Shown piece by piece: positions 11,767 to 47,713 of a DNA stretch of 64,000 bases. Location of the stretch: assembly GCF_016863015.1 (NCBI RefSeq), contig NZ_BOOB01000016.1:62001-126000 (forward strand), read 5' to 3'. Both the position numbers and the translations under genes were made by a program. The notes below the pieces were generated by a model. It did not search any database. It saw nothing but the letters and a program-made list of their open reading frames with translations, and had not been told where the DNA came from. How positions within the stretch are numbered: position 1 is the first letter of the stretch; each line of letters opens with the position of its first letter. Origin of the DNA: Microbispora amethystogenes (GTDB lineage Bacteria; Actinomycetota; Actinomycetes; Streptosporangiales; Streptosporangiaceae).

Positions 11767-13152
11767 TCATGCGGCGGCCAGCGCGTCGAGGGCGGCCGTG
11801 AAGACCCCGGCCGGTGGGCTGACCAGCCCCGCCCCCACCTGCCCCGTCCCGGCGACGCGGCCCGCGATGCCGGTGTTCACGACCGGCAGCACACCGGTCC
11901 TCGCCACGAGGGCGACGTCGATGCCGGCGGGCGTGCCCCGGAAGCCCAGCCCCGGGATCTGGTACGCCGGGTGCTCGGCCAGCGTGATCTCGTACATCGA
12001 GGTCGTGGCCGCGACGGCGTCGGCCACCTCGCCGCCGACGAACCGGACGATCGCCGGGGCCGCCGCCATCGCGAAGCCGCCGAGCCCGACGGTCTCGGTG
12101 ATCGTGGAGTCGCCGATGTCGGGGTTGGCGTCGTCCGGCCCGTATCCGCCGAGGTAGAGCCCGTCGGGCACCCCGGCCGGCCCGGTGAACCACCGGTCGC
12201 CGAGCCCCGACACCTGTATTCCGAAATCCGTTCCGTTGCGGGCCATCGCCACGACCAGGCTCGATCCCGGCACGCCGCGCGCCGCGTCGGCCGCGGCTTT
12301 CGCCGCCGCCATTCCCGCGTTCAGGAAGAAATGATCGTTTCCATTGACGAAACGCAGCACCTCCGCCGCGCGGCCCGGGGCGGCCTCCACGACCGCGGGG
12401 GCGATCTCCCGTACCAGCAGGGAGGTCGCCGCCCGGTTCCGGTTGTGCAGCTCGTCGCCCATCTGCAGGGCCTGCGCGACCAGCGTGCGCAGGTCGAGGG
12501 GCCCGCACCGCTCCAGGGCCGCCGCGAGCGCCGGCCCGAGCACCTCGCCCATCCAGCGCAGCCGCTCGATCACCTCGGGTCCGTACGCGCCGTACCGGAG
12601 GACCTTGCCCAGGCCCTCGTTGAGGGAGCAGTAGGCCGTGGCGCCGTGCTCGGCGTCGGCGACCTCCAGCATCCACATGGACGGGCTGACCACCCCCGCC
12701 ATCGGGCCGACCGTGCGGTGGTGGTGGCAGGAGTCCAGGGTGATCCCCGCGCCGGAGGCGAGGCGCTCCGCCGCCTCCTCCGGGGTGGCGGCGAGGCCCT
12801 CGAAGAGCATCGCGCCGATGAGCGCCCCCCGCATCGGCCCGGAGGCCCGTTCCCAGGTGATCGGCGGACCGGCGTGGAAGAACGTCCCGGCCTCCAGGCC
12901 CAGCGCCTCGCGGGCCGGCCGTACGCCGGTGAGCATGGGCCGCGCGGACAGCATCCTCCCCACGGCCGTCGCGTTGGCCTGTACGCGCCGGGGGTCGGCG
13001 AGCACCCGGGCGAGTGACGCGGCGACACCCGGGGCCGGCGGGCGCCAGTCGACCCGCCGCTGCGGCACGGCCTGCCGGTCCAGCGCCTCGGCGAGCACCT
13101 CGGCGCCCACGGTGATGACGCGCGGCTCGCCGTACAGCATGGAGAGGGTCAT
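11767..13152 (-). CDS. allG: DUF1116 (YlbE/AllG-like) subunit of a carbamoyltransferase-type complex
   Basis: The 461-aa product matches the DUF1116 family. Recognisable segments are AGTFFHAGPPITWERASGPM, GITLDSCHHHRTVGPMAGVVSPSMWM, NEGLGKVLRYGAYG, NRNRAATSLL, VNGNDHFFLN, and DIGDSTITETVGLGGFAMAAAPAIVRFVGG. In E. coli the homologue sits with fdrA and a DUF2877 gene; that trio has been assigned oxamate carbamoyltransferase activity in allantoin fermentation (recalled, not checked here). It is the third gene of a minus-strand unit (DUF2877, FdrA, DUF1116), 47 bp after FdrA, so co-transcription is likely. The true substrate in this organism may be another N-carbamoyl compound. Confidence 0.88.
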   Translation of the reverse strand: MTLSMLYGEPRVITVGAEVLAEALDRQAVPQRRVDWRPPAPGVAASLARVLADPRRVQANATAVGRMLSARPMLTGVRPAREALGLEAGTFFHAGPPITWERASGPMRGALIGAMLFEGLAATPEEAAERLASGAGITLDSCHHHRTVGPMAGVVSPSMWMLEVADAEHGATAYCSLNEGLGKVLRYGAYGPEVIERLRWMGEVLGPALAAALERCGPLDLRTLVAQALQMGDELHNRNRAATSLLVREIAPAVVEAAPGRAAEVLRFVNGNDHFFLNAGMAAAKAAADAARGVPGSSLVVAMARNGTDFGIQVSGLGDRWFTGPAGVPDGLYLGGYGPDDANPDIGDSTITETVGLGGFAMAAAPAIVRFVGGEVADAVAATTSMYEITLAEHPAYQIPGLGFRGTPAGIDVALVARTGVLPVVNTGIAGRVAGTGQVGAGLVSPPAGVFTAALDALAAA

Positions 13153-13199
13153 CGGCTACCTCCGGTGAACCGGGTGGGACTGCTGGGCGGCACGGCCCG

Positions 13200-14582
13200 T
13201 CAGCCGTCCGCCAGGCGGCGGGCGTGCCGCGCCGCCGCCGCGTTGGAGGTGAAGACGGCCGCGCCGGCCTCGTTCAGGCGCGCGGCCTGGGCGCGCAGCC
13301 CCTGCGGGTCGCCGTCCGCGCCGACCAGCGCGACCACCACGTCCACCCCCCGGGCGACGGCGTCGCGGACCTCGGGCGCGAGCCAGGAGGACGGATCGGG
13401 GTCGGCGCCGTGCCCGAGCACCACGTCGAGCAGCACGACGCCCGAGGCGACGCCGCGCAGCGCCTCCCGGCGCAGCGACGGGTCGATCATGGGATGGGCC
13501 CGACCCCGCGTGTACGCGTCGTCCCCGAAGTCGACGAAACCCGCCTCCGTGGCCGTGTCCGCACCGGCGATGAGGGCGGCCTCGGCACACAGCGTGCCGC
13601 CGGAGTAGAGCCCCCGCAGCGGGCGCCGCCCCTCGCGGGCGGGCGCCTCGCCGGCGGGCCAGCACGGCCACTCGGGCACGTCCCGGCCGAGGGCGCGCAG
13701 CGCCTTCTCCGCGACGGCGGTCAGGTCGTCCTCCCCCGGCCCGAGCAGCGCGGCGACGACCGGGGTGGCCAGGCCGAGGTCCCGTACGGCGCGGGCCGCC
13801 TCGGGGGCGGGCGGCTTGGAGACCAGCACGATCAGCTCGGTCGCCGGGTCCTCGTCCAGCGCGCGCAGGGCCTGCACGGCCGAGCGCCCGCCCACCTCGG
13901 CGGACAGGTCCCGGCCGCCCACGCCGAGCACGTGCGACACGCCGACGCCGGCGATGTCGAGCAGGCAGGTCACCTGCTGGGCGCCGGTGCCCGAGGCCGC
14001 CACGACCCCCACCGGGCCGGGCCGCAGCACGTTGGCGAAGCCCAGACCGGCCCCGCCCACGACGGCGGTGCCGCAGTCGGGGCCCATGACGAGCACGCCC
14101 CTGGCCCGCGCCCGGTCCTTGAGCAGGATCTCCTGCTCGACGGGCACGTTGTCACTGAAGATCATGACCGAGAGCCCGGCCTCCACGGCGTCGAGCGCCT
14201 CGGCGAAGGCGTGCTCGCCGGGCACGCTCACCAGCGCCACGGTCGCCTCCCACGACCGCGCCGCCGACCGGACGGTGCGGGGCGGCGCCTCGTCACGGGC
14301 CTTCCCGCCCCCACTCCCGGTCGTGGCGAGCTGCCGCTCCAGCTCGGCGGCGGCCTCGCCGAGATCGGCGGACGTGGCCGCCCTGATCGCCACCAGCAGG
14401 TCGCCGGGGGTCGTGGGCGGGACCTCGAAGCCGAGGTCGCGGGCGAGACCGGCGTTGAGATCCGTGCCCATCGCGACGACGGCGACGGCCACCTCCGGCC
14501 GGGCGGTGAGCGCCTGGCTCACCCGCATCAGCGTCACCGAGTCGTGGTAGACGCCGGGGCGGACCTCGACGAGATCGGTCAC
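13200..14582 (-). CDS. fdrA: FdrA (AllF-like) subunit, acyl-CoA synthetase fold carbamoyltransferase
   Basis: The 460-aa product aligns by eye with E. coli FdrA along its length: YHDSVTLMRVSQAL, SVPGEHAFAEALDA, VMIFSDNVPVEQEILLKDRA, VLVMGPDCGTA, GVVAASGTGAQQVTCLL, GVGGRDLSAEVGG, LVSKPPAPE, GLYSGGTLCAEAAL, and FVDFGDDAYTRGRAHPMIDP. The fold is that of succinyl-CoA synthetase, which uses phospho-intermediates, fitting transfer between carbamoyl phosphate and an amide or ureido acid. GTG 14582 is chosen because it overlaps the DUF2877 stop in a 4-bp GTGA, showing translational coupling; the reading frame stays open upstream, but that part has no family similarity. The protein is shorter than the E. 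coli homologue at the C-terminus. Confidence 0.9.
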   Translation of the reverse strand: MTDLVEVRPGVYHDSVTLMRVSQALTARPEVAVAVVAMGTDLNAGLARDLGFEVPPTTPGDLLVAIRAATSADLGEAAAELERQLATTGSGGGKARDEAPPRTVRSAARSWEATVALVSVPGEHAFAEALDAVEAGLSVMIFSDNVPVEQEILLKDRARARGVLVMGPDCGTAVVGGAGLGFANVLRPGPVGVVAASGTGAQQVTCLLDIAGVGVSHVLGVGGRDLSAEVGGRSAVQALRALDEDPATELIVLVSKPPAPEAARAVRDLGLATPVVAALLGPGEDDLTAVAEKALRALGRDVPEWPCWPAGEAPAREGRRPLRGLYSGGTLCAEAALIAGADTATEAGFVDFGDDAYTRGRAHPMIDPSLRREALRGVASGVVLLDVVLGHGADPDPSSWLAPEVRDAVARGVDVVVALVGADGDPQGLRAQAARLNEAGAAVFTSNAAAARHARRLADG

Positions 14583-15526
14583 GGCCGCTCCCGGCGGGCC
14601 GGGCCGGTCGGGCCGCCGGCGGCACCGGTGCCGAGAAGCGACAGGACGGCCGACACGCCGATCTGGACGCCCCACGCCAGGTCGGCGCCGGAGGTGTGGC
14701 CGAGGCGGAGCAGGCGGTTGACGGCGGGTTCCGGCGGTTGGTGCCCGGCCGCCGCCCGCAGCACGCCGAGGACTTCCGGGCTCGCCTCGCCCCTGGCCGC
14801 GCAGTGCAGCAGGGTCGCCGAGATGGAGGTGGTCCTGGTGCGGGCGTCGAAGGTGACCGCGGCGGCGAGCCAGTCCGCCAGCCACACCGCGCGCGGGGCC
14901 CCGGCGGCCCGGCCGAGGTGGCGCAGCGCGACCAGCAGCCCCGCGAGCATGTCGTCGCCGCTCGGCGTGAGCCCGGGGCCGAGGCCGATGAGCTGCTCGG
15001 CCGCCGTGATGCTCTCCACCAGCGAGCCGCGCAGGCAGCCCCGCTCCAGCAGCGCCGGGGCCCCGGCCGGGTCCAGCCCCGGCCGCCTCGGCGAGGCCGC
15101 GCGGATCCCGGCCAGCACCGCGGGGGCGGCCGCCAGCCGTGCGGGGTCGGCGGGAGCGAGCGCGGGAGCGGGGTCCCACCAGCGGCGGACGCCGACGGAC
15201 AGGCCGCCGATCTCGATGGAGCCGTCGCCGACCCAGCCGTCGTCGCCGGCCGACACCCCGTCGAGGGACTCGCCGAGCAGCACCGCGTTGGGCAGGCGGA
15301 CGCCCTCACCCGTGACCACGGCGATCACGTGCGGCTCGCACTCGCTCCTGACCTCCAGGTAGAGCGCGAGCGGGAAGGCCGCGAGCACCCGTGCCGGGCG
15401 GCGGGGGGACTCCAGGGCGGGCCGTACGGCGACGCTCGCCGCGCCGCTCACATAGGACGGGGCCGCCGGGGGACGGGGAGCGGGCGCCGCCGTCCGCCGC
15501 CCCTTCTGGCGCGTGCCAACACTCAC
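14579..15526 (-). CDS. allH: DUF2877 (YlbF/AllH-like) subunit of the carbamoyltransferase-type complex
   Basis: The 315-aa product belongs to DUF2877, the third partner that accompanies FdrA and DUF1116 proteins. The hallmark GLGPGLTPSGDDMLAGLLVALRH lies around residues 178-200, followed by TSISATLLHCAARGE and LLRLGHTSGADLAWGVQIG. The first ~40 residues are low-complexity (Pro/Ala/Arg-rich), so a later start is possible. It is the first gene of the unit and is divergent from the PucR regulator. The 168-bp gap carries a 12-bp perfect palindrome. PucR regulators control purine and ureide catabolism, so this complex probably acts in N-compound breakdown. Confidence 0.86.
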   Translation of the reverse strand: MSVGTRQKGRRTAAPAPRPPAAPSYVSGAASVAVRPALESPRRPARVLAAFPLALYLEVRSECEPHVIAVVTGEGVRLPNAVLLGESLDGVSAGDDGWVGDGSIEIGGLSVGVRRWWDPAPALAPADPARLAAAPAVLAGIRAASPRRPGLDPAGAPALLERGCLRGSLVESITAAEQLIGLGPGLTPSGDDMLAGLLVALRHLGRAAGAPRAVWLADWLAAAVTFDARTRTTSISATLLHCAARGEASPEVLGVLRAAAGHQPPEPAVNRLLRLGHTSGADLAWGVQIGVSAVLSLLGTGAAGGPTGPARRERP

Positions 15527-15575
15527 CGGGACCTCCCTCGCCAGTCGTTGCCGACGCTAAGGCCCGCTTTCCCCC

Positions 15576-15587
15576 CTCCGTACGGAG
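15576..15587. promoter_or_regulatory. 12-bp palindrome in the divergent DUF2877-pucR region
   Basis: CTCCGTACGGAG is a perfect palindrome 50 bp upstream of the DUF2877 start and 108 bp before the PucR start. It is flanked by CCCCC on one side and AAAGG on the other. It is a plausible regulator-binding site, possibly for PucR itself. No second copy was found upstream of the permease or the carbamate kinase operon. Confidence 0.4.
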
Positions 15588-15694
15588 AAAGGTGCCAACA
15601 GTCGGCCGAATGCTTGGCTCTTCCTGACAGGACCGGCGTCGGGCAGAATCACCGTGAGACGTCCCGAGCACGTCGACACTCCCCGGAGACGCCC

Positions 15695-17290
15695 TTGCGC
15701 AACGACCCCGCTCCGCCCGCGATGCGGCTGGCCAGCACCGGCACGATCCTGCACGGGGTGTCGGTGGGCGAGGTGCTCGGTGTGTCCACGCTCGCGGACG
15801 CCCGCCTGATCGCCGGCGGGGACGGGCTCGGCCGCATCGTGCAGCGCCTCAACGTGATGGAGGTGCCCGACATCCTCGCCTGGGTGAAGCCGCACGAACT
15901 GCTGCTCACCACGGGCTACCCGCTGCGCAACACCCCGCAGTCGCTCGACCGGCTCGTGACCGACCTGGACGAGCGGGGTCTCGCGGCCCTGGCGATCAAA
16001 CTCGGGCGCTACCTGGACGAACTGCCGGGGGAGATGGTCGAGCAGGCCGACCGGCTGGGCTTCCCGCTGATCCTGCTCCCCAATGACGTGGGGTTCGACG
16101 ACATCCTCAACCAGGTGCTCACCGACATCCTCAACCGGCAGGCCGCGATCCTCGCCAGGACCGAGGAGGCCCACCGGGCGCTCGTGCAGATCGTGCTGGC
16201 CGGGGGCGGGATGCGGGAGGTCACCGCCGAGGTGGCCGGGCTGCTCCGGGTGGCGGTGGGCGCGATCGACGCCTCCGGGCACTTCCTCGCGGCGGCCGGG
16301 GAGGCGCCCCAGGTGGCGCGGCTGCGGGAGATCAACGCCCCGGGACGGACGCCCGCGCAGCCCTCCGGGAACGGCCACCACGCGAGCGTGCCGATCGTCG
16401 CGGGCGGCCACCACCACGGGAGGATCGCGGCCTACAGCGTCCACGGCACGCTCACCCCGAGCGACGTGGGCATCCTGGAGAGGGCCGCGACCGTGGCCGC
16501 GCTGGTGATCACCAAGCAGGAGGCGGTCACCGCCGTCGAGAGCAAGTACCGCGCCGACTTCCTGCGGGACGTGCTGACCGGCCGGGGCGGGCTGCGGGTG
16601 GCCGAGCGCGCCCAGGCGTTCGGCTGGGACCTGGAGCGCCCAGTGAGCGTGATGGTGGCGGAGATCGACCCGGACGCCGAGGAGCGGCCCCTCCAGGACC
16701 GCATGTGCGCGGCCTGGCAGGCGTCGGTGCGCAAGCACGACCCGCGCGGCGCGGTGGCGGGCTTCTCCCACGAGGTCGTGGCGATCGTCGGGGCGTCCGC
16801 CGACCCCGCGCGGGTGGCGCGTGACGCGCTCGCGGGGATCTCCGACGGCACGTTCTCCACCGGGCTCAGCCGGGTCGCCTCCGGGGTGGACTCGCTGCCC
16901 GGCGCGTACAACCAGGCGCTGAAGGCCGCCCGGGTGGGCCGCCAGCTGCACGGGGCGGGCGCGGTCGCCCACTTCGACGAGCTGGGGGTCTACCGGCTGC
17001 TGTCGCTCGTCAGCGACACCGACGAGCTGCACTCCTTCGTACGGGAGACCCTGGGCCCGCTCGCGTCGGACGACGACGCCGAGAACGCCGACCTGCGCCG
17101 CACCCTGCAGGCGCTGCTGGAGACCAACCTCAACGTCGCCGAGACCGCCAGGCGGCTGCACTTCCACTACAACACCCTGCGTTACCGCATCGGGAAGCTG
17201 GAGCGCCTGCTCGGCAACTTCACCGAGGACGCGCACCTGCGGCTCAACCTCACCCTCGCCCTGCACGTGCTGCGCATGCGCGGCATCTGA
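15695..17290 (+). CDS. pucR: PucR-family transcriptional regulator
   Basis: The 531-aa product has the PucR layout. An N-terminal purine-catabolism domain reads GVSVGEVLGVSTLADARLIAGG through VMEVPDILAWVKPHELLLTTGYPL. A middle GAF-like region follows, and the C-terminal helix-turn-helix reads LRRTLQALLETNLNVAETARRLHFHYNTLRYRIGKLERLLG. PucR proteins are usually activators of purine, ureide or related catabolic genes. TTG 15695 is chosen because CGGAGA sits 6-7 nt upstream; ATG 15722 is an alternative. It is divergent from the FdrA complex and precedes the permease and Mo hydroxylase genes, so it is the obvious candidate controller of both. Confidence 0.92.
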   Translation: MRNDPAPPAMRLASTGTILHGVSVGEVLGVSTLADARLIAGGDGLGRIVQRLNVMEVPDILAWVKPHELLLTTGYPLRNTPQSLDRLVTDLDERGLAALAIKLGRYLDELPGEMVEQADRLGFPLILLPNDVGFDDILNQVLTDILNRQAAILARTEEAHRALVQIVLAGGGMREVTAEVAGLLRVAVGAIDASGHFLAAAGEAPQVARLREINAPGRTPAQPSGNGHHASVPIVAGGHHHGRIAAYSVHGTLTPSDVGILERAATVAALVITKQEAVTAVESKYRADFLRDVLTGRGGLRVAERAQAFGWDLERPVSVMVAEIDPDAEERPLQDRMCAAWQASVRKHDPRGAVAGFSHEVVAIVGASADPARVARDALAGISDGTFSTGLSRVASGVDSLPGAYNQALKAARVGRQLHGAGAVAHFDELGVYRLLSLVSDTDELHSFVRETLGPLASDDDAENADLRRTLQALLETNLNVAETARRLHFHYNTLRYRIGKLERLLGNFTEDAHLRLNLTLALHVLRMRGI

Positions 17291-17319
17291 GTCCCTAAGC
17301 CGGCCCCTAAGCTGGCGCC

Positions 17320-17535
17320 GTGAACGAGGCCATAACCTTCGAGCTCGACGGCGACCACATCCCGCTCTGCGATCTCCTCAAGTTCTGCCAGATCGCCGAC
17401 AGCGGCGGCGCGGCCAAACACCTCGTCGCCGAGGGCCTGGTCCGCGTCGACGGACAGGTGGAACTACGCAAGGCCTGCAAAATCAGGGCGGGCCAGGTCG
17501 TCACCGGCGACGACTACACGATCCGCGTGGTGTAG
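17320..17535 (+). CDS. Small S4-domain RNA-binding protein (YbcJ-like)
   Basis: The 71-aa product is a single S4 domain: LCDLLKFCQIADSGGAAKHLVAEGLVRVDGQVELRKACKIRAGQVV. It resembles E. coli YbcJ, a free-standing S4 protein thought to bind structured RNA. A TAAGCT hexamer at 17308-17313 lies 6 nt before the GTG, which suggests a leaderless transcript independent of pucR. Its exact role is unknown. Confidence 0.88.
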   Translation: MNEAITFELDGDHIPLCDLLKFCQIADSGGAAKHLVAEGLVRVDGQVELRKACKIRAGQVVTGDDYTIRVV

Positions 17536-17689
17536 GTCCGCGCGGTGTAGACGCTCCGGTGGCCGCCGTTTTGGCAGATCATGCCCATGTCTGTCGAGCA
17601 CGCCGGTCCTAAAGTGCCCCAAACGGTCAAGGAAGTACGCGGGACGCCTGCGGGGTGGCCGAGCCCACGGCCCAGCTGGAGGGACGTAC

Positions 17690-19072
17690 ATGGCTTTCAG
17701 ATGGACGGTGCACGGAGACGGCAGAGGGCTGGCCCCCGGCGAGGTCGTCAAACCCGGCGAGAGGCTGAGCTGGCCGCGGATGGCCGGGATCGGCGCGCAG
17801 CACGTGATCGCGATGTTCGGCGCGACCTTCGTGTTCCCCCTCGTGATGGGGCTCGACCCGAACACCGCGGTGATGATGTCGGGCGTCGCGACGATCCTGT
17901 TCCTGCTGATCACCCGGGGCCGGATCCCCAGCTATCTCGGCACCTCGGCGTCGTTCGTCGGCGGCGTGGTGGCGGTGCGCGCGGCGTTCGGCGGCGACAC
18001 CCCGGGGGCCGACCAGGTCGTCACCGGGGCGATCCTCGTCGCGGGTCTCGTGCTCGCGGTGTGCGGCGTGGTCATCCACGTCCTCGGCGTGCAGGTCATC
18101 CACCGGATCTTCCCGCCGGTCGTGACCGGTGCGGTGGTCATGCTGATCGGGTTCGGCCTGGCGTACGTCGTGGCCGACGTGTACTGGCCGCAGGACCCGT
18201 GGATCGCGCTGGTCACGATGGTCGCGACGTTCGTGTTCATCGTGCTGTTCCGCGGCTTCCTCGGCCGGATCGGCGTGCTGCTCGGGCTGGTCTTCGGGTT
18301 CGTCCTGTCGTGGCTCGCCGACCGGGTGTTCGGGAACATCACCGCCTACAACGCGGGCACCGGCGCGGTCGACACCCATCCCCGGGTGAGCTTCCAGGCC
18401 GTCGCCGACGCCGGCTGGATCGGGCTGCCGCACTTCCACGCGCCGTCGTTCCAGGCGTCGGCCGTGCTGGTCGTGCTGCCCGCCGTGATCGCCCTGATCG
18501 CGGAGAACGTCGGCCACGTCAAGGCGGTCGGCCAGATGACCGGCGCCGACGTCGACCCCATGATGGGCCGGGCGATCGTCGCCGACGGCGTCGGCACCGC
18601 GGTCGCGACCGCCGTCGGCGGCTCGCCGACGACGACGTACGCCGAGAACATCGGCGTCATGGCGGCCACGCGGGTCTACTCGACGGCCGCCTACTACATC
18701 GCCGCGGTCATCGCGATCCTGTTCGGCCTGTGCCCGAAGTTCGGCGCGCTGGTCGCCGCCACGCCCGGCGGCGTGCTCGGCGGCGTCACGGTCATCCTGT
18801 ACGGCATGATCGGGCTGCTCGGCGCGAAGATCTGGGTGGAGAACCGGGTGGACTTCGCCGACCCGGTCAACATGGTCCCGGTCGGCGCGGGGATCATCCT
18901 CGCGATCGGGCCGGTCACGCACCAGATCACCGGGGACTTCTCGCTCGCCGGGATCGCGCTGGGCACGATCGTGGTTCTCGCCGGCTATCACCTGCTCCGC
19001 GCCATCGCGGGCAGGCCCGCGAAGGAGGTCACAGGTGGGGAGATCGGGCTCGAACGCGACCCGGCCGTCTGA
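17690..19072 (+). CDS. NCS2 (uracil/xanthine permease) family transporter
   Basis: The 460-aa product is a nucleobase:cation symporter-2 with about 14 membrane segments. Family motifs are QHVIAMFGATFVFPLVMGLDPN near the N-terminus, GTSASFVGG, the substrate/cation region AENVGHVKAVGQMTG and SPTTTYAENIGVMAATRVYST. The UraA/RutG-like signature favours a pyrimidine such as uracil, though xanthine or barbiturate cannot be excluded. GTG and other starts were rejected because ATG 17690 follows a GGAGGGACGTAC context. It reads directly into the Mo hydroxylase genes 24 bp later, so imported substrate and hydroxylase are probably linked. Confidence 0.93.
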   Translation: MAFRWTVHGDGRGLAPGEVVKPGERLSWPRMAGIGAQHVIAMFGATFVFPLVMGLDPNTAVMMSGVATILFLLITRGRIPSYLGTSASFVGGVVAVRAAFGGDTPGADQVVTGAILVAGLVLAVCGVVIHVLGVQVIHRIFPPVVTGAVVMLIGFGLAYVVADVYWPQDPWIALVTMVATFVFIVLFRGFLGRIGVLLGLVFGFVLSWLADRVFGNITAYNAGTGAVDTHPRVSFQAVADAGWIGLPHFHAPSFQASAVLVVLPAVIALIAENVGHVKAVGQMTGADVDPMMGRAIVADGVGTAVATAVGGSPTTTYAENIGVMAATRVYSTAAYYIAAVIAILFGLCPKFGALVAATPGGVLGGVTVILYGMIGLLGAKIWVENRVDFADPVNMVPVGAGIILAIGPVTHQITGDFSLAGIALGTIVVLAGYHLLRAIAGRPAKEVTGGEIGLERDPAV

Positions 19073-19096
19073 TCGGCGCGCGTCCCGGACGACGCG

Positions 19097-19972
19097 GTGA
19101 AGCCGCCGCCGTTCGACTACCACCGCCCGGCCACCCTCGGTGAGGCGCTCGACGTCCTCGCCGAGGCGGGCCCGGGCGGGAAGGTCCTCGCGGGCGGCCA
19201 GAGCCTGATCCCGCTGCTCAACATGCGCCTCGCCGCGCCCGCGCGCGTCGTCGACGTCAACCGCGTGCCCGGCCTGGACGGCATCGAGGCCGGGCCGTCC
19301 GGCGTACGCGTCGGGGCGCTCGCCCGCCACGCCGCCGTCGAGCGCTCGCCCGGGGCCGCGGCGGCCCAGCCGCTGCTGCGGCAGGCGCTGCGCCTGGTCG
19401 CCCACCCCGTGATCCGCAACCGGGGCACCGTGGTGGGCAGCCTCGTCCACGCCGACCCCGCCGCCGAGATGCCCGCCGTCCTCGCCCTGCTCGGCGGGGC
19501 CGTACGGCTGGCGAGCCTGGACGGGGAGCGGGAGGTGCCGGCCGCGGAGTTCTTCACCGGCCCGATGGAGTCGGCGGCGCGGCCCGGCGAACTGGCCGTG
19601 TCGGCGTTCTTCCCGGCGCTGCCGGCGCGGTCGGGCACGGCCTTCCACGAGGTGGCCCGGCGGCACGGCGACTACGCGGTGGCCGGGGTCGCCGCCGCCG
19701 TCACCCTGGACGACGACCTCCGGATCTCCGCCGCCCGCGTCGCCTGCGTGAGCGTGGGACCGGTCCCGGTGGTCGCGGACGTGACGGCGGTCTGCGGCCC
19801 ACGCCCGGCGGCGTCGGTGGCCTGGGACGCGGTGGCGGCCGCCGTACGGGACCTGGTCGAGCCGGAGGGCGACATCCACGCGACGGCGGACTACCGCCGC
19901 CATCTCACGGGCGTGCTCGCCGTACGGGCGCTGCGGGACGCCGCCTCCGCGGCCCACGGGGAGGAATCGTGA
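19097..19972 (+). CDS. Molybdenum hydroxylase FAD-binding subunit (CoxM/XdhB-like)
   Basis: The 291-aa product is the medium subunit of a xanthine dehydrogenase-family enzyme. It has MKPPPFDYHRPATLGEAL, the FAD-binding VLAGGQSLIPLLNMRLA near residue 32 and NRGTVVGSLVHADPAAEMPAVLALL. It carries electrons between the FeS subunit and an acceptor. GTG 19097 starts it. The stop overlaps the FeS subunit start by 4 bp. All three subunits are present in the common order medium, small, large. Confidence 0.93.
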   Translation: MKPPPFDYHRPATLGEALDVLAEAGPGGKVLAGGQSLIPLLNMRLAAPARVVDVNRVPGLDGIEAGPSGVRVGALARHAAVERSPGAAAAQPLLRQALRLVAHPVIRNRGTVVGSLVHADPAAEMPAVLALLGGAVRLASLDGEREVPAAEFFTGPMESAARPGELAVSAFFPALPARSGTAFHEVARRHGDYAVAGVAAAVTLDDDLRISAARVACVSVGPVPVVADVTAVCGPRPAASVAWDAVAAAVRDLVEPEGDIHATADYRRHLTGVLAVRALRDAASAAHGEES

Positions 19973-20490
19973 ACGAGACACACCATCGCGTGACGCTGAC
20001 GGTCAACGGGGTCGTGCGGGAGGCGACGGTGCCCGGGCGGCGGCTGCTGTCCGACTGCCTGCGCCACGACCTCGGCCTCACCGGCACCCACGTGGGCTGC
20101 GAGCACGGCGTCTGCGGCGCGTGCACGGTGCTGCTGGACGGCGAGCCGGTGCGGTCGTGCCTGACGTTCGCCGTCACGGTGGACGGCCAGGAGATCACGA
20201 CGGTCGAGGGGCTGGCCCAGGGCGGCGCGCTGTCGCCGGTCCAGCGGGCCTTCACCGAGTGCCACGCCCTGCAGTGCGGGTTCTGCACGCCGGGGTTCCT
20301 GTGCACGGTCACCGCGTTCCTGCGGGACAACCCCGCGCCGTCGGAGGAGGAGGCGCTGGAGGCCGTGGCGGGCAACCTGTGCCGGTGCACCGGCTACCAG
20401 AACATCCTCAAGGCGGTCCACCGCGCCGCCGAGATCCAGGCCGCCGAGATCCAGGCCGCCGAGCTTCAGGCCGAGGAGGGCGGGGCATGA
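19969..20490 (+). CDS. Molybdenum hydroxylase 2Fe-2S subunit (CoxS-like)
   Basis: The 173-aa product has both [2Fe-2S] motifs: the plant-ferredoxin type GCEHGVCGACTVLLDGEPVRSCL and the helical type CGFCTPGFL with NLCRCTGYQNI. It relays electrons from the Mo site to FAD. The C-terminus carries a 15-bp tandem repeat encoding AAEIQ-AAEIQ-AAELQ (20430-20470), a recent slippage expansion in a tail that is not needed for clusters. ATG of the large subunit overlaps its stop (ATGA at 20487-20490). Confidence 0.94.
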   Translation: MNETHHRVTLTVNGVVREATVPGRRLLSDCLRHDLGLTGTHVGCEHGVCGACTVLLDGEPVRSCLTFAVTVDGQEITTVEGLAQGGALSPVQRAFTECHALQCGFCTPGFLCTVTAFLRDNPAPSEEEALEAVAGNLCRCTGYQNILKAVHRAAEIQAAEIQAAELQAEEGGA

Positions 20491-22871
20491 CCACGAGGCT
20501 GTTCGGCGAGCCGGTCCAGCGGCGCGAGGACCCCCGGCTGATCACCGGGCGGGGGCGTTACCTCGACGACCTGGGCGCGGGCGCGCTGGCCGCCGCCTTC
20601 GTCAGGTCGCCGCACGCCCACGCGCGGATCCTCGACGTCGACGTGTCGGACGCCCTCGACGTGGACGGCCTGGTCGCGATCTACACCTGGGAGGACCTGC
20701 CGGGCGCGCTGGCCGAGCCGCTGCCGCTGCTGATCCCGCACCCGGCGCTCACCCACGGCCGCACGGCGTACCCGCTGGCCCGGGAGATCGTGCGGCACGT
20801 CGGGGAGCCGGTCGTCATGGTCGTCGCCCGCGACCGCTACCTCGCCGAGGACGCCTGCGCGCTGATCCGGGTCGGCTACGAGGTGCTCAAGCCGGTCGTG
20901 GGCCTGGAGGAGGCCGCCGGGGGCGCGCACCTGGTGCACGACGACGTGCCGGGGAACATCGGCGCGCACCTCGTGCAGGAGGTGCCCGGCCCCGGGGGCG
21001 AGACGGCGCGGGAGGCGGTCGACGCGGCCCCGCACCGGCTGGAGTTCCGCCTCGACGTGGAACGCAGCGCGTGCACGCCCCTGGAGGGGAAGGGGGTGTA
21101 CGCCCGGTGGGACGCCGACGACGCGTCGCTGCGCGTCTACTCCTCCACGCAGACCTCCACCAGCGTGCGAATGGCCATCGCGGCCAAGCTGGGGCTGCCG
21201 CTGCCCAAGGTGGAGGTCGTCGCGCCCGACGTCGGCGGCGGCTTCGGCGTCAAGATCGTTCATCCCTGGCCCGAGGAGATCCTCGTCCCGTGGGCGGCCC
21301 GGCTGTTGAACCGGGAGCTCAAGTGGACCGAGGACCGGCGCGAGCACTTCGTCTCCTCCTCCCACGAGCGCGGGCAGGTGCAGCACGTGCGAGTGGGCTT
21401 CGACGACGACGGCCGCCTCCTCGGCCTGGAGGTGGAGATCCTGCACGACCACGGCGCCTACACGCCGTACGGGATCATCGTGCCGATCATCACCTCGACC
21501 CAGCTGCTCGGGCCGTACAAGGTGGGCGCCTACCGGGTCGAGTTCTCCTCGGTCTACACCAACACCGTGCAGGTCACGCCGTACCGCGGCGCGGGCCGCC
21601 CGCAGGGCGTCTTCTGCATGGAGCGCACGATGGACAAGATCGCCGCCTACCTCGGCCGGGACCGTACGGAGGTCAGGGCGGCCAACTTCGTCCAGCCGGA
21701 CGAGTTCCCCTACGACCAGGGCCTGACGTTCCAGGACGGGCGCCCGCTGATCTACGACAGCGGCGACTACCCAGAAGCGCTGCGCATGCTCAAGGAGCTG
21801 ATCGGCTGGGACTCCTTCCCGGAGGAGAAGGCGCGGGCGGCGGCCGAGGGCCGCAGGATCGGCATCGGCGTCGGCTGCTACGTCGAGGGCACCGGCGTCG
21901 GGCCGTACGAGGGCGGCCACGTGCAGATCACCTCCGACGGCCGGGTGCACGTGTCGACCGGCCTCACCTCCCAGGGTCAGGGCCACGAGACGGTGTTCGC
22001 GCAGATCGCGGCGACCGAGCTCGGCGTGCCGATCGAGAGGGTGTCGGTCGTCACCGGCGACACCCGGCGCTTCGGCTACGCGGTGGGCACCTTCGCCTCC
22101 CGCGCGGCCGTGATGAGCGGCAACGCGATCGCGCTCGCCTGCCGGAAGGTCAGGGAGAAGGCGCTGCGGATCGCGGCCGAGGCGCTGGAGGCCGACCCGC
22201 GCGACCTGGAGATCACCGACGGGATGGTCCACGTGGCCGGCGCGCCGTCGGCGTCGATCCCGCTGGCGACCGTCGCCGTGCTGTCCAACCCGCTGCGGTA
22301 CGCCTTCGACGAGGAGGCCAAGCGGGCCACCCAGTTCGCCGGGCCCGCCTCCGACGACCGGCCGCCGGTGGCGGAGGGGGAGGAGCCCGGCCTGGAGGGC
22401 CGCGACTACTACTCGCCGGTCAGGTCGACCTTCGCGGCCGGCATGCACGCCGCGATCGTGGAGACCGACCCGGACACCGCCGAGATCAGGATCCTGCGGT
22501 ACGCCGTCGTGCACGACTGCGGCAGGCTGATCAACCCGATGATCGTCGAGGGGCAGATCCACGGCGGGGTCGCCCAGGGCGTCGGCGGCGCGCTGTACGA
22601 GAAGATGGTCTACGACGAGCACGGCCAGTTGCTGAACGCCTCGTTCATGGACTTCCTGATGCCGTACGCCACGGAGATCCCGCGCATCGAGACGGCCCAC
22701 CTGGAGACGCCCTCGCCGCTCAACCCCCTGGGGATCAAGGGAGCCGGGGAGGCCGGGGTCATCCCGGTCTCCGCCGTCCTCGCCGCCGCGATCGAGGACG
22801 CCGAGGGCATCCCAATCGACCGGATGCCCATCTCCCCCTCCGACCTCCACACCCTGCGGCGCTCTCGGTGA
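20487..22871 (+). CDS. Molybdenum hydroxylase large (molybdopterin) subunit (CoxL/XdhA-like)
   Basis: The 794-aa product binds the molybdenum cofactor. It begins RLFGEPVQRREDPRLITGRGRYLDDL and carries VVAPDVGGGFGVK, PYRGAGRPQG, QGQGHETVFAQIAATELG, and the catalytic-Glu motif GIKGAGEAGVIPVSAVLAAAIEDA. The active-site loop reads PYRGAGRP, not the AYRCSFR of form-I CO dehydrogenase, so it is not a CO dehydrogenase. Context (pyrimidine-type permease, PucR) suggests a uracil/thymine-type, xanthine-type or other N-heterocycle hydroxylase. No Mo-cofactor maturation gene is in view. It ends 6 bp before the convergent vapC. Confidence 0.93.
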   Translation: MTTRLFGEPVQRREDPRLITGRGRYLDDLGAGALAAAFVRSPHAHARILDVDVSDALDVDGLVAIYTWEDLPGALAEPLPLLIPHPALTHGRTAYPLAREIVRHVGEPVVMVVARDRYLAEDACALIRVGYEVLKPVVGLEEAAGGAHLVHDDVPGNIGAHLVQEVPGPGGETAREAVDAAPHRLEFRLDVERSACTPLEGKGVYARWDADDASLRVYSSTQTSTSVRMAIAAKLGLPLPKVEVVAPDVGGGFGVKIVHPWPEEILVPWAARLLNRELKWTEDRREHFVSSSHERGQVQHVRVGFDDDGRLLGLEVEILHDHGAYTPYGIIVPIITSTQLLGPYKVGAYRVEFSSVYTNTVQVTPYRGAGRPQGVFCMERTMDKIAAYLGRDRTEVRAANFVQPDEFPYDQGLTFQDGRPLIYDSGDYPEALRMLKELIGWDSFPEEKARAAAEGRRIGIGVGCYVEGTGVGPYEGGHVQITSDGRVHVSTGLTSQGQGHETVFAQIAATELGVPIERVSVVTGDTRRFGYAVGTFASRAAVMSGNAIALACRKVREKALRIAAEALEADPRDLEITDGMVHVAGAPSASIPLATVAVLSNPLRYAFDEEAKRATQFAGPASDDRPPVAEGEEPGLEGRDYYSPVRSTFAAGMHAAIVETDPDTAEIRILRYAVVHDCGRLINPMIVEGQIHGGVAQGVGGALYEKMVYDEHGQLLNASFMDFLMPYATEIPRIETAHLETPSPLNPLGIKGAGEAGVIPVSAVLAAAIEDAEGIPIDRMPISPSDLHTLRRSR

Positions 22872-23270: not shown

Positions 23271-23527
23271 GCTGGAAGTCCGGTCTCAGGGTCGTAGAGA
23301 AAGTCGCTGGACAGCTCAAGCCCGCCCACCCGAGAGCGGATCTTCGCGGCAAGCGTGAGAATGTCGTCTGCCATCGTGGCGTCCTCAAGCTGCTGACGCT
23401 TCGTGAGCAGCCGCTCGTGCCGTTCCCGCAGGGCGGAGATGACGGCGGCGGTCTTGCTCTCACCGGTGAGGGCTCCGATCTCGGCTGCCAGGCGTTCGGC
23501 CTCGGGATTCTTGATGTTCAAGCTCAT
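23267..23527 (-). CDS. vapB: VapB-type antitoxin (Rv0623-like)
   Basis: The 86-aa product starts MSLNIKNPEAERLAAEIGALTGESKTAAVISALRER. This is the ribbon-helix-helix N-terminus of the Rv0623-like antitoxin family, with a C-terminal tail (SDFLYDPETGLPA) that should wrap the toxin. ATG 23527 is preferred over TTG 23533 because AAAGGGG lies 6 nt upstream. It probably represses its own promoter with VapC. The module is an island between the Mo hydroxylase and cydB. Confidence 0.88.
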   Translation of the reverse strand: MSLNIKNPEAERLAAEIGALTGESKTAAVISALRERHERLLTKRQQLEDATMADDILTLAAKIRSRVGGLELSSDFLYDPETGLPA

Positions 23528-28194: not shown

Positions 28195-28297
28195 CCGGCC
28201 GGGTGAGGTCCGCGTCACCGCCACGCCGAGGCCGGGCACATCTTGCCGTTCTCGCCGTACGGGTGATTTTCTGGTGTGCTTCGCATCGGAGGTGGCC

Positions 28298-28999
28298 ATG
28301 AAGGTCTCGGGCAGCGCGCTGGTCGCGGCGGAGCGCAAGCGGGTCTGGGACGCCCTCCAGGACCCCGGCGTCCTGGTGCGGACGATCCCCGGCTGCGAGC
28401 GCCTGGAGACGGTCGGGGAGAACGTGTACGCGATGACGGTCACGGCGGGGGTCGCCTCGGTCAGGGGCGTCTACCAGGGTGAGGTCGCCCTGCGCGACCA
28501 GGAGGAGCCGGACCGGTTCACGCTCGGCGCGCGCGGCCAGGGCGCCCCCGGCACCGTCGAGGCCACCGTGGCCGTACGGCTGAGCGACGCCGAGGGCGGC
28601 ACCCGGGTCGACTTCGACGCCGAGGCCGTCGTCGGCGGCATGATCGGCGGCGTGGGGCAGCGGATGCTCGCCTCGGTGGCCAAGAAGACCGCCGGGGAGT
28701 TCTTCTCCGCCGTCGAGCGGCACCTGCTGTCCGCCTCCGCCGTTCCCGCCACGGTGACCGCCGCGGTGTCCGCCGCTGTGTCCGGAGCCGTGCCGGAAGC
28801 CGTGTCCGGAGCAGTTCCGGCGGCGACGGCCGCGGCCGGTGACACGACGCCCCGGGTGTTCACCCGAGAGGCCCCCGCCGCGCCCCGCCAGGGCGTGCCG
28901 GCCTGGACGATGCTCGCGGCCTTCGGCACGGGCGCCGGGGTGGCCCTCGGCAGCGCCGTCATCGGCTGGCTCCTCGGCCGCGACTCCCGCCGCCGTTAG
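28298..28999 (+). CDS. coxG: CoxG-like SRPBCC protein with C-terminal membrane anchor
   Basis: The 233-aa product starts MKVSGSALVAAERKRVWDALQDPGVLVRTIPGCERLE, a classic CoxG SRPBCC fold, and includes GVYQGEVALRDQEEP and MIGGVGQRMLASVAKKTAGEFF. A Val/Ala/Ser-rich linker leads to a C-terminal membrane segment, AWTMLAAFGTGAGVALGSAVIGWLLG, and a basic tail. CoxG proteins attach Mo hydroxylases to the membrane and handle quinone. It is 5.4 kb from the Mo hydroxylase genes, so a shared function is plausible but unproven. ATG 28298 follows CGGAGG. Confidence 0.85.
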   Translation: MKVSGSALVAAERKRVWDALQDPGVLVRTIPGCERLETVGENVYAMTVTAGVASVRGVYQGEVALRDQEEPDRFTLGARGQGAPGTVEATVAVRLSDAEGGTRVDFDAEAVVGGMIGGVGQRMLASVAKKTAGEFFSAVERHLLSASAVPATVTAAVSAAVSGAVPEAVSGAVPAATAAAGDTTPRVFTREAPAAPRQGVPAWTMLAAFGTGAGVALGSAVIGWLLGRDSRRR

Positions 29000-29840: not shown

Positions 29841-31883
29841 ATGTCCATCCGCATCGGGGTAGACACCGGCGGCACCTTCACCGACGTCGTTCTCGTCGAC
29901 GAGGAGTCCGGCCGCGTCGTCACGACCAAGACTCCCTCCACTCCTGCCAACCCGGCCGATGGTTTCATGGCAGGCGTGCACAAGGTGCTGGAGGCCCACG
30001 GGGGGTCCCGCGACCTCGATGCCGTCGCCGCCCTCGTCCACGGCACGACCGTCGCCACGAACCAGTTGCTGGAGGACCGCCCGGACGGCACCGCCCACCT
30101 GGGGTTCGTCACCACCGAGGGGTTCGAGTCCGTCCTGGAGATCGCCCGGCAGAGCGTGCCGGACGGCTACGGCAACTCCTACTTCTGGGTGAAACCGCCG
30201 CGGATCGTGCCCGCCCACCGGGTGCGTACCGTGGGAGGACGGCTCGACCACCTCGGTGGGGAGATCCGGCCGTTCGACGAGAAGCAGGCCGCGGACGCCG
30301 CGCGGTGGTTCAGGGAGCGGGGCGTCACCGCGATCGGCGTGTGCCTCCTGCACTCCTACGCCAACCCCGCCCACGAGCGGCGGATGCGGGAGGTGCTGGA
30401 GCGCGAGCACCCGGAGGCCGTCGTGTCGCTGTCGAGCGACGTGCTGCGGGAGTACCGGGAGTACGAGCGGTCGGTCACCACGCTGGTGGACGCGGCGGTC
30501 AAGCCGATCATGCGGCGCTACATCGGGAACCTGTCCGAGCGGCTCGGCCGGCCCTTCTCGGTCATGAAGAGCAACGGCGGCGTGCTCTCGGCGGCCGAGG
30601 TGGTGCACCAGCCGATCACGACCGTCCTGTCCGGCCCGGCCGCGGGCGCGCTCGGCGCCGCCCTGGTGGCCGGGGCCGCCGGGCATCCGAGCGCGATCAC
30701 CCTCGACGGCGGCGGCACCTCGACCGACGTGGCCGTGGTGGTCGACGGAGAGCCCTCGCTGACGACCGAGGGCAGGATCGGCCGTTATCCCTGCAAGATC
30801 CCGATGATCGACATCGTCACGGTCGGGGCGGGCGGCGGGTCGATCGCGTGGGTCTCCCCGGAGGGCACGCTGAAGGTGGGCCCCCGCTCCGCGGGCGCGG
30901 ACCCCGGGCCGATCTGCTACGGCGGAGGCGGCGCCGAGGTGACGGTGACCGACGCGCACGTCTTCCTCGGCCGGGTGCCGCCGCACCTGCTCGGCGGGGA
31001 GATCCGCCTCGACGTCTCCGCCGCGCGGGCGGGCGTCGAGGCGCTCGCCGCCCGGCTCGGGCTGACCCCCGAGCGCTGCGCCACCGGGATCCTGGAGATC
31101 AGCGCCTTCAACCAGTCGAACGCGATCCGGCAGATCACCGTGCAGCGCGGGCTCGACGTGCGGGACTTCCCGCTGGTCGCGTTCGGCGGGTCCGGCCCGC
31201 TGCTGGCCTGCCGCCTGATCGACGTCCTCGGGCTGCCCGCCGCGATCATCCCGCCCGACCCGGGGAACGTGTCCGCGTTCGGCCTGCTCACCGTGGACGT
31301 GAAGAACGACTACGTCCGCACGCACGTCACCCGTGAGCCGTCGCCGCGGGTGCTCGGCGAGATCCTCGCCGACCTGGAGGCCGAGGCGGCGGACGCGCTC
31401 GGCCGCGAGGGCTTCGCCGAGCACGTGTACGCGCGCAGCGCCGACCTGCGCTACTACGGCCAGGCGTACGAGGTGCGGGTGGCCGCGCCGGACGGTCCCG
31501 TGGACGACGCGTGGCTCGCCGTGGTCGCCGGCCGGTTCCACGCCGAGCACGAGAGGCTCTACGGGTACGGCTACCGCGACGATCCCCGGCACGCCGTCGA
31601 ATGGGTCAACCTCCGGGTGTCCGGCATCGGCCCGATCACCCGGCCGAAGCTCGCGCGCAAGCCGTACCAGCCGGACGAGCCGAGCCCGGTCGGCACCCGC
31701 GACGTGTACTACGAGCGGTGGGGCAGGACCGTCGTCTACCGCCGCGACGACCTCGGCGCGGGCGCCGTCGTCCGCGGCCCCGCCGTCGTCGAGGAGTACG
31801 GCTCGACCCTGCCGGTGCATCCCGGCTTCACGGCGACCATGGACGACTACGGCAACCTCGTGGTGGTGAGCGATGACCGGTAG
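29841..31883 (+). CDS. hyuA: Hydantoinase/oxoprolinase family protein, subunit A
   Basis: The 680-aa product carries IRIGVDTGGTFTDVVLVDEESG, VHGTTVATNQLLE, GVCLLHSYANPAHERRM, MKSNGGVLSAAE, SGPAAGALGAALVA, LDGGGTSTDVAVV and GGSIAWVSPEGTLKVGPRSAGADPGPICYGGGG. These are ASKHA-type ATP-binding motifs of HyuA, the ATP-dependent subunit of N-methylhydantoinase, oxoprolinase or acetone carboxylase-like complexes. It acts with HyuB, whose gene overlaps by 11 bp. The substrate is not set by sequence. Confidence 0.92.
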   Translation: MSIRIGVDTGGTFTDVVLVDEESGRVVTTKTPSTPANPADGFMAGVHKVLEAHGGSRDLDAVAALVHGTTVATNQLLEDRPDGTAHLGFVTTEGFESVLEIARQSVPDGYGNSYFWVKPPRIVPAHRVRTVGGRLDHLGGEIRPFDEKQAADAARWFRERGVTAIGVCLLHSYANPAHERRMREVLEREHPEAVVSLSSDVLREYREYERSVTTLVDAAVKPIMRRYIGNLSERLGRPFSVMKSNGGVLSAAEVVHQPITTVLSGPAAGALGAALVAGAAGHPSAITLDGGGTSTDVAVVVDGEPSLTTEGRIGRYPCKIPMIDIVTVGAGGGSIAWVSPEGTLKVGPRSAGADPGPICYGGGGAEVTVTDAHVFLGRVPPHLLGGEIRLDVSAARAGVEALAARLGLTPERCATGILEISAFNQSNAIRQITVQRGLDVRDFPLVAFGGSGPLLACRLIDVLGLPAAIIPPDPGNVSAFGLLTVDVKNDYVRTHVTREPSPRVLGEILADLEAEAADALGREGFAEHVYARSADLRYYGQAYEVRVAAPDGPVDDAWLAVVAGRFHAEHERLYGYGYRDDPRHAVEWVNLRVSGIGPITRPKLARKPYQPDEPSPVGTRDVYYERWGRTVVYRRDDLGAGAVVRGPAVVEEYGSTLPVHPGFTATMDDYGNLVVVSDDR

Positions 31884-46777: not shown

Positions 46778-47713
46778 GTGGGCGGACGCGTACTGATCGC
46801 ACTCGGCGGCAACGCCATGACGGCTCCGGACGGGAGCGCGTCACCGGCGGACCAGCACCGGGCGGTCGGCGAGGCGATGACCCACGTGGCGGCGCTCATC
46901 CGGGCCGGGCACGAGGTGGTGCTGACGCACGGCAACGGCCCGCAGGTCGGCAACATCCTGCTGAAGAACCAGCTCAGCGCGGGCGTCGTGCCGCCCGTGC
47001 CCCTCGACTGGTGCGTGGCGCAGACGCAGGGCACGATCGGCACGCTCGTGATGAACGCCCTCCAGCGGGAACTGGGCCACGCGCGGGTCGCCGCCGTCGT
47101 CACGCGCACGCTGGTGGACGCGGACGACCCCGCCTTCCGGGACCCGGTCAAGCCGATCGGGCGCTACTTCGGCGAGGATGAGGCGCACCGGTTCGAGGGG
47201 GAGGGCCAGGTCTGGCGGCGCTTCGACCGCGGCTGGCGGAGAGTGGTCGCCTCGCCCCAGCCGGTGGAGATCCTCGACGCCGCCGCGGCCGTCACGCTGA
47301 TCGAGGCCGGGTTCACGGTCGTCGCCGCCGGAGGCGGGGGAGTGCCGGTCGTACGCCGGCCGGACGGCGTGCTGACCGGGGTCGAGGCGGTGGTCGACAA
47401 GGACCTCGCCGCCGCCGCGCTCGCCGTCGCCGTCGGCGCCACCGACCTCGTGATCGCGACCGACGTGCCGTACGCCTCGCTGGACTTCGGCACGCCCCGG
47501 GCCCGCCCGATCGGGGACGTCGACGTCGCCGCGCTGCGCGCGCTGCAGGCGGCGGGTCACTTCGCCGGAGGCAGCATGGGCCCCAAGGTCGAGGCCGCGC
47601 TGCGCTTCGCCGAGGCGGGCGGCAACCAGGCGGTGATCACCTCGCTGCACCACATCGGGGCGGCGTTGTCGGGAAATATCGGGACCAGGGTGTCCAGAGG
47701 GGTGGAGGGATAG
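46778..47713 (+). CDS. arcC: Carbamate kinase
   Basis: The 311-aa product begins [20 protein letters not shown] and has [68 protein letters not shown] and [13 protein letters not shown], the full carbamate kinase signature. In catabolism it converts carbamoyl phosphate and ADP into ATP, ammonia and CO2. TAGTTT lies 6 nt before the GTG, so the mRNA is probably leaderless. No arginine deiminase or ornithine transcarbamylase gene is nearby. Its partner is the ring-opening amidohydrolase, whose start overlaps the stop by one base. Confidence 0.93.

Follow-up and report, generated by a model that had tools for sequence, protein, structure and literature searches.

The 64,000-nucleotide stretch of the Microbispora amethystogenes genome analyzed here (contig NZ_BOOB01000016.1, positions 62,001 to 126,000; henceforth the window) carries, together in one operon, homologs of AllF, AllG, and AllH, which diverge from a gene for a PucR-family regulator followed by an NCS2 permease and by the medium, small, and large subunits of a molybdenum (Mo) hydroxylase, called MoM, MoS, and MoL (table 1). 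A CoxG-like gene, the pair hyuA-hyuB, and an operon of carbamate kinase and barbiturase lie further along the same strand. The first of these arrangements had been described in an earlier reading of the same DNA made from the sequence alone (the sequence-only reading), and it is confirmed by open reading frames (ORFs) and family profiles, as the operon of carbamate kinase and a barbiturase-family enzyme at 46778-48819 is confirmed by profiles and by the overlap of its two genes. All the genes named there stand, but the extent of the set was drawn too narrowly, since CoxG, HyuA-HyuB and, often in relatives, an amidase also belong to it. In terms of spacing, the genes form three tight units: allGFH, with 47 bases between allG and allF and an overlap of 4 between allF and allH; the permease and Mo genes, with a gap of 24 bases before MoM and overlaps of 4 bases each inside the Mo genes; and carbamate kinase-barbiturase, which overlap by 1 base. 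From a common gap of 195 bases between allH and pucR, allGFH run leftwards, while pucR, the permease, and the three Mo genes run rightwards.

Table 1. Genes and other features of the proposed cluster in the 64-kb window, with the profiles and structures supporting each assignment
Feature	Position	Strand or location	Evidence and predicted role
allG (DUF1116)	11767..13152	-	PF06545 331 bits (cut-off 27); predicted AllFGH transcarbamylase-type complex subunit
allF (FdrA)	13200..14582	-	NF004760 362 bits (below its cut-off of 433); PF00549; FdrA 3dmy 220 bits
allH (DUF2877)	14579..15526	-	PF11392 98 bits (cut-off 25)
Palindrome CTCCGTACGGAG, perfect, 12 bases	15576..15587	allH/pucR divergent gap	Candidate operator
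pucR-family regulator	15722..17290	+	PF07905, PF17853, PF13556 (HTH_30)
NCS2 nucleobase permease	17690..19072	+	PF00860 250 bits; RutG TIGR03616 361 bits, below cut-off 758
Mo hydroxylase FAD (medium) subunit, MoM	19097..19972	+	PF00941, PF03450
Mo hydroxylase 2Fe-2S (small) subunit, MoS	19969..20490	+	PF01799, PF00111
Mo hydroxylase large (molybdopterin) subunit, MoL	20487..22871	+	PF02738, PF20256; predicted uracil dehydrogenase
CoxG-like Mo hydroxylase accessory protein	28274..28999	+	PF06240 82 bits (cut-off 22)
HyuA, ATP-dependent cyclic-amide hydrolase family	29841..31883	+	PF01968 297 bits; N-methylhydantoinase 7hk5 479 bits
HyuB	31873..33705	+	PF02538 454 bits
Carbamate kinase	46778..47713	+	TIGR00746 337 bits (below cut-off 358); NF009007 295 bits (above cut-off 266)
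Barbiturase	47713..48819	+	TIGR02714 547 bits (cut-off 153); PDB 5hwe 602 bits, 74% identity

The link between the two loci, which the sequence-only reading had proposed, is supported by their near-exact co-occurrence in the order, by single clusters elsewhere in the phylum and by the collinearity of the window with such a cluster. Co-occurrence was evaluated in an order sample of 150 genomes, a class sample of 394 and a phylum sample of 296, counting as high-scoring the AllG matches of at least 290, 280, and 300 bits, respectively; these thresholds, like the ortholog thresholds of 69% identity for MoL and 57% for carbamate kinase, were chosen with the gaps in the respective lists already in view. 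At most six MoL and 15 carbamate kinase candidates were scored per genome, so that an ortholog could be missed, and the genomes are related rather than independent, Fisher values being only indicative.

In the order sample, barbiturase-family genes were found in 91 genomes, high-scoring AllG in 89 and MoL of at least 69% identity in 90, every one of these 89 and 90 genomes having barbiturase as well; neither high-scoring AllG nor the MoL ortholog was found without it (for MoL, 90/91 barbiturase genomes and 0/59 others), and the next MoL matches listed have 45% identity or less, well under the 69% group. G020 and G004 have barbiturase without high-scoring AllG, and G006, a genome 77% complete, has barbiturase without the MoL ortholog. 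Any match to PF06545 was seen in 91 genomes, two of which are low-scoring and without barbiturase, G095 (250 bits) and G120 (237 bits). Of the 60 genomes with the carbamate kinase ortholog, every one has barbiturase and 59 have AllG. Barbiturase-family genes occur in 81 genomes of the class sample, a count that takes in a 25-residue fragment (G463) and five divergent relatives with 35-41% identity (G199, G517, G521, G535, G732); AllG occurs in 78, both genes in 72, and AllG alone in six. The two genes share a contig in 47 of these 72 genomes, at a median distance of 30 kb and within 134 kb in 46 of the 47, G490 having them 1.74 Mb apart. In the phylum sample, 18 genomes have barbiturase-family genes and 21 have AllG, the shared genomes numbering 14 versus 1.3 expected. 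A low-scoring class of AllG was considered as part of the system and found no support, for none of the 15 phylum genomes having only that class has barbiturase.

The gene content of clusters was then read by tblastn around the barbiturase of 14 of the 17 phylum genomes that carry it besides the window's own (left out were G341, G418, and G235, the last being represented by its AllG contig only). AllF and AllG lie on the same stretch in nine of the 14, eight of them outside the class (G158, G173, G200, G224, G257, G267, G375, G428) and one within it (G211). Carbamate kinase accompanies them in eight of the nine (not G428), as do Mo hydroxylase subunits (not in G257, whose contig ends first). 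Five of these clusters, G158, G173, G200, G267, and G375, have the same order, namely pucR and, on the opposite strand, barbiturase, permease, carbamate kinase, AllH, AllF, AllG, and Mo hydroxylase, with a permease 29-33% identical to that of the window and, in some, extra genes interspersed. Among the remaining five of the 14, AllG lies 44 kb away in G234 and on another contig in G246, and no AllG match was obtained for G199, G330, and G340 in the phylum-sample search. The comparative search for adjacent fdrA and barbiturase-family genes that had been suggested at the outset is, with these single clusters, positive.

Among 16 class genomes picked by hand for cluster layout, four (G755, G767, G480, G701) have a compact cluster of about 18 to 27 kb, in which AllG-AllF-AllH diverge from permease-MoM-MoS-MoL-amidase-HyuA-HyuB-carbamate kinase-barbiturase, with PucR in three of the four; in the other picked genomes the parts lie apart, on short or different contigs, or a barbiturase relative stands divergent and alone. 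The ORFs of three compact clusters place along the window in the same order: AllG, AllF, AllH, PucR, permease, MoM, MoS, MoL, the CoxG-like protein (from one of the three), HyuA, HyuB, carbamate kinase, and barbiturase. The window consequently holds a stretched form of one cluster with other genes in between, and we regard it as nearly certain that the AllFGH locus and the distant carbamate kinase-barbiturase operon are the two ends of one conserved ancestral cluster. The same parts are found within about 40 kb in the plasmid locus L113 of Embleya and in G060 (L131, L132). The Embleya cluster also contains a cytosine deaminase (L113:9471-11078, 579 bits, cut-off 483) between HyuAB and carbamate kinase, which would feed uracil and counts in favor of the uracil route proposed below.

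The AllG proteins of these clusters also group together in phylogeny. In a tree of 34 rows, the protein of the window, those of eight other members of the order, 11 rows from barbiturase clusters and the L137 protein of G095 form one clade (99/96). A second group (93/97) unites E. coli AllG with plasmid rows lying beside cyanuric acid hydrolase and two others, and a third (99/97) comprises three rows beside HyuAB without barbiturase, plus two more; E. coli AllG sits on a long branch, the composition of four rows is odd, and the root serves for drawing only. L137 has a long branch within the barbiturase-associated clade and comes from a genome without a barbiturase or Mo ortholog match; at this locus AllFGH, PucR, and permease remain, carbamate kinase also being without a match in the genome. 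Compared with E. coli, the window subunits show 45% identity for AllG and 38% for AllF. Over 30 rows including E. coli, 89 columns of AllG and 58 of AllF are invariant, from which the complex of the window is, as far as its sequence tells, probably active. A paralogous system was noticed in the genus of the window: in L139 and L140 a second AllG copy, which is divergent (49%), adjoins an amidase gene, and an NCS2-like permease is not far away.

Among solved proteins, the closest relative of the window barbiturase is the barbiturase 5hwe, with which it shares 272 of 368 residues, the cyanuric acid hydrolases coming next with 324 bits or less; its best matches among 80 named relatives are from Microbispora, with 94% identity. 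The barbiturase subgroup is described in PMC4051656 as having Gln where the cyanuric acid hydrolase of Azorhizobium has Arg188. At this position, counted by eye in the SRGAS motif, both the window enzyme and 5hwe have Asn, neither Arg nor Gln. Carbamate kinase lies upstream of barbiturase in 49 of the 80 named loci, although in L013 the match covers only 54 residues. Possibly broken copies were also seen: a carbamate kinase match carrying a single in-frame TAG (G002:C7:53522-54454), another found only in pieces (G121:C50), and a barbiturase match split in two (G611:C1:430503-431631).

In metabolic terms, this arrangement raises a question: What would a complex of the AllFGH type do next to barbiturase? 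For the E. coli complex, PMC11326118 reports the reaction oxalurate + phosphate <-> oxamate + carbamoyl phosphate, the purified enzyme having been assayed in the carbamoylating direction. In the route that we propose, the NCS2 permease would import uracil and the three-subunit Mo hydroxylase would oxidize it at C6 to barbiturate, the ring of which would be opened by barbiturase to ureidomalonate (3-oxo-3-ureidopropanoate), which is an N-acylurea like oxalurate but with one additional CH2. AllFGH would then cleave ureidomalonate with phosphate into malonamate and carbamoyl phosphate, carbamate kinase would convert the latter into ATP, ammonia, and CO2, and an amidase, malonamidase-like in related clusters and with no close match in this genome, would release malonate and ammonia from malonamate. 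This whole route, from uracil via barbiturate and phosphorolysis to carbamoyl phosphate and ATP, is rather likely to be the best explanation of the cluster; phosphorolysis of ureidomalonate by this AllFGH is reasonably probable in itself, and uracil appears to be a likely entry substrate. The reading is based on gene identities, conserved linkage, collinearity, co-occurrence, and the barbiturase-associated clade of AllG.

As to the direction in which AllFGH works, the amidase offers the strongest indirect indication. Phosphorolysis of ureidomalonate would yield malonamate, whereas its hydrolysis would yield urea and malonate; hence only the former creates a need for a malonamidase-like enzyme, malonamidase E2 being an enzyme that hydrolyses malonamate. 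The cluster amidase of G158, the only one compared with solved structures in this respect, has malonamidase E2 as its closest relative (276 bits; GatA, the next family, 138 bits), and homologs with at least 56% identity to it lie in the clusters of G200, G224, G235, G267, and G375, making six clusters in total outside the class; this fits malonamate as the product. No NCBIfam cut-off is reached by the malonamidase-like amidases in the clusters of L134, L123, and L142. In the window, a nitrilase-family hydrolase (38832-39623) was considered as the malonamate amidase and not adopted, its closest NCBIfam model being deaminated glutathione amidase (224 bits, below the cut-off of 355). This gene lies about 4 kb from an aminotransferase gene, and nitrilase-family genes occur near the cluster also in L113, L119, and L131.

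Concerning the remaining components, the prediction of the Mo hydroxylase as uracil dehydrogenase comes from its three-subunit architecture and its linkage. A CoxG-like gene also comes next after the Mo hydroxylase in L113 and L116, and a homolog does so in L167; the window permease fails the curated RutG cut-off. PucR probably senses the route, a role suggested by its position. The palindrome in the divergent gap is unchanged in 11 aligned sequences of the same genus; the window has a single copy of it, and no common site with the region upstream of carbamate kinase was established.

Several observations weigh against the route as formulated. The barbiturase of the window also exceeds the cut-off of the NCBIfam model for cyanuric acid amidohydrolase (NF052395, 472 versus 360 bits); this model may not separate the two enzymes, and since it is also passed, the assignment as barbiturase is based on 5hwe, the closer relative. 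Similarly, MoL scores 1528 bits (cut-off 950) with NF040766 (CODH_aero_grp5), a model for aerobic CO dehydrogenase. A role as CO dehydrogenase was considered and rejected, for the active-site Cys motif of the aerobic enzymes, AYRCSFR, is replaced by PYRGAGR and the gene tracks barbiturase. In 80 named barbiturase loci, of which up to 10 kb per side was available, there was no match to AllFGH, PucR, permease, or Mo hydroxylase. G020 has kept barbiturase and Mo hydroxylase with no AllG match, the ORFs near its barbiturase being one P450 and two without a family; in the class, 9 of the 81 barbiturase genomes are without high-scoring AllG, and in the phylum, 7 of the 21 genomes with AllG of at least 300 bits have AllFGH without barbiturase. 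The carbamate kinase ortholog was found in only 59 of the 89 AllG genomes of the order, and AllG is present with no carbamate kinase match in G110, G134, and G135, with a weak match only in G077 and with pieces in G121; in such genomes carbamoyl phosphate may go into the synthesis of pyrimidines or arginine. The window yields no match to the cluster amidases, and the best one in the whole genome is 35% over 458 columns; in compact clusters of the same class the amidase is of another subfamily, not close to malonamidase (L168 was compared). The equilibrium of carbamoyltransferases is said to favor carbamoylation strongly (PMC4016543). Moreover, the genome of the window encodes urease and a dihydropyrimidinase-family enzyme, with which a hydrolytic route via urea or a reductive route is possible. 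Finally, HyuAB, present in most clusters with enough sequence, is not explained by a barbiturate route.

Of the alternatives to be weighed, the most conventional takes AllFGH as an ordinary oxamate transcarbamylase handling oxalurate from purines or hydantoin, with barbiturase working in a separate, neighboring hydrolytic pathway through ureidomalonase, urea, and urease. Oxalurate/oxamate is indeed the only proven AllFGH substrate that we found (PMC11326118), the classical oxidative route is reported to end with ureidomalonase, giving malonate and urea (PMC3758960), and the urease just mentioned would suit such an ending. Yet the AllG of the cluster tracks barbiturase and falls outside the E. 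coli group, single clusters of barbiturase and AllFGH exist outside the class, and a pathway ending in urea and malonate would have no use for a malonamidase-like gene. AllD of the E. coli type, moreover, has no match in the genome of the window, and of the 17 genomes searched for it six have weak matches, none above the cut-off; an E. coli-type allantoin route was rejected for this genome on the former ground. We consequently judge this alternative unlikely. Mere coincidence and shared ancestry, by which the loci would be neighbors passed on jointly with no link in function, could draw on the frequent closeness of the two genes in the class, where 46 of the 72 genomes with both have them near enough on one contig to be lost together. 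This is hard to reconcile with single clusters of conserved order outside the order and class, with G490 retaining both genes despite the distance between them, and with plasmids on which AllFGH and carbamate kinase accompany a different enzyme of the barbiturase/cyanuric acid hydrolase family, so that coincidence is very improbable.

A different possibility is that the cluster degrades a second cyclic ureide as well, such as thymine via 5-methylbarbiturate or hydantoin via parabanate, with HyuAB opening the ring at the cost of ATP and AllFGH acting on both of the resulting acylureas. HyuAB accompanies the cluster in the window, Embleya, G060, G158, G211, G224, G235, G267, G375, G428, G480, G490, G544, G701, G741, G755, and G767, and was not seen on the available stretches of G200, G234, and G770. 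Moreover, Mo hydroxylase (54-55%), HyuA, HyuB, AllF, and AllG are found together in three genomes with no barbiturase match, G306, G284, and G181. HyuA resembles N-methylhydantoinase and caprolactamase, but it remains far below the equivalog cut-offs (479 vs 1000 bits) and its substrate is putative. The idea of a second ureide, rather doubtful at present, is compatible with the uracil-barbiturate route and not exclusive of it. The other phylum genomes with high-scoring AllG and no barbiturase match are G214 and G187, where AllF and AllG come with a carbamate kinase, and G162 and G177, where they come with a permease. The loci L148, L149, and L150 have Mo hydroxylase-HyuA-HyuB-AllF-AllG without barbiturase in the genome, i.e., another ring opener paired with AllFGH; HyuB of L148 matches in two pieces, and the window proteins are 61% (HyuA) and 73% (HyuB) identical to those of L149.

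How the proposed uracil-barbiturate route relates to known systems can be seen from three comparisons. The anaerobic allantoin route of E. coli, with AllFGH and AllK, has homologous subunits, works with a carbamate kinase and acts on an N-acylurea, as proposed here; it differs in that the window AllG lies outside the E. coli group, AllD is not matched, and the complex goes together with barbiturase, Mo hydroxylase, and HyuAB, carbamate kinase being placed in the barbiturase operon. The oxidative pyrimidine pathway of Rhodococcus reportedly consists, after Soong and others (as cited in PMC3758960), of uracil dehydrogenase, barbiturase, and ureidomalonase. It shares barbiturase with the window, where the Mo hydroxylase would take the place of uracil dehydrogenase, whereas AllFGH and carbamate kinase (with a malonamidase-like amidase in relatives) would replace ureidomalonase, a step that would conserve energy if the reading is right. 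We know of no gene sequence for ureidomalonase. In Rubrobacter, an aerobic actinobacterium, a further parallel exists. The ureidoglycine carbamoyltransferase of Rubrobacter xylanophilus is described as cleaving a ureide by phosphorolysis to give carbamoyl phosphate, and its gene lies next to that of a carbamate kinase, as is proposed here; that enzyme is ATCase-like, acts on allantoate in purine breakdown and belongs to another family than AllFGH (PMC4016543). The sequence-only reading had called such a step by an FdrA-type complex unusual in an aerobe; given the precedent in Rubrobacter, where the transferase is ATCase-like and not of the FdrA type (PMC4016543), the aerobic setting alone is not without parallel. 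In open-access literature from PubMed Central, we found no link between barbiturase and AllFGH.

A related combination is found on plasmids. In Aminobacter (L114) and Klebsiella quasipneumoniae, fdrA and the DUF1116 gene are neighbors of carbamate kinase and a ring-opening amidohydrolase, and DUF2877 follows about 7-9 kb further along; the ring opener of L114 does not differ from TrzD 5t13 over 370 residues. The K. pneumoniae plasmid pHS08204 has, in succession, a cyanuric acid hydrolase-like gene (6bum, 582 bits), an NCS2 permease, DUF2877, fdrA, DUF1116, and arcC, and allophanate hydrolase lies near the group in the Klebsiella plasmids L111 and L112. The groups of L114, L111, and L112 thus resemble the window in combining a ring-opening amidohydrolase with AllFGH and carbamate kinase, but they carry cyanuric acid hydrolase instead of barbiturase, with no Mo hydroxylase match on the stretches examined. 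This suggests a possible phosphorolytic route for cyanurate, in which carboxybiuret and phosphate would give allophanate and carbamoyl phosphate; judged from their structures, oxalurate, ureidomalonate, and carboxybiuret would share the same N-acylurea end. In comammox, allFGHK next to triuret genes are read as oxalurate breakdown in PMC12625717. Whether AllFGH constitutes a general family of N-acylurea phosphorolases, paired with barbiturase, cyanuric acid hydrolase, or HyuAB besides its role with oxalurate in E. coli, seems to us an evenly balanced question.

The window also contains other genes between the Mo operon and CoxG (22878-26008, minus strand). As judged by eye, they include a PIN-domain toxin-like gene (22878-23270) and two that resemble cytochrome bd oxidase subunits (23586-24830 and 24509-26008). 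The stretch 42088-42972, checked as a gene, has no family match.

If the proposed uracil-barbiturate route is true, it would provide a gene set for oxidative pyrimidine breakdown that is common in one actinomycete order, where 91 of 150 genomes have a barbiturase-family gene, and in that order an energy-conserving step would replace the ureidomalonase step. A likely role would emerge for a family of Mo hydroxylases that a curated model currently labels CO dehydrogenase. The AllFGH genes, tied to oxalurate in 2024 (PMC11326118), would also serve pyrimidines and perhaps cyanuric acid, which is a residue of pool water and herbicides. What is new, then, is that the energy-saving release of carbamoyl phosphate, known for an allantoin product, would probably extend to the breakdown of barbiturate; were AllFGH a general family of N-acylurea phosphorolases, ring-opened pyrimidines and triazines would yield carbamoyl phosphate and ATP, not only ammonia or urea.

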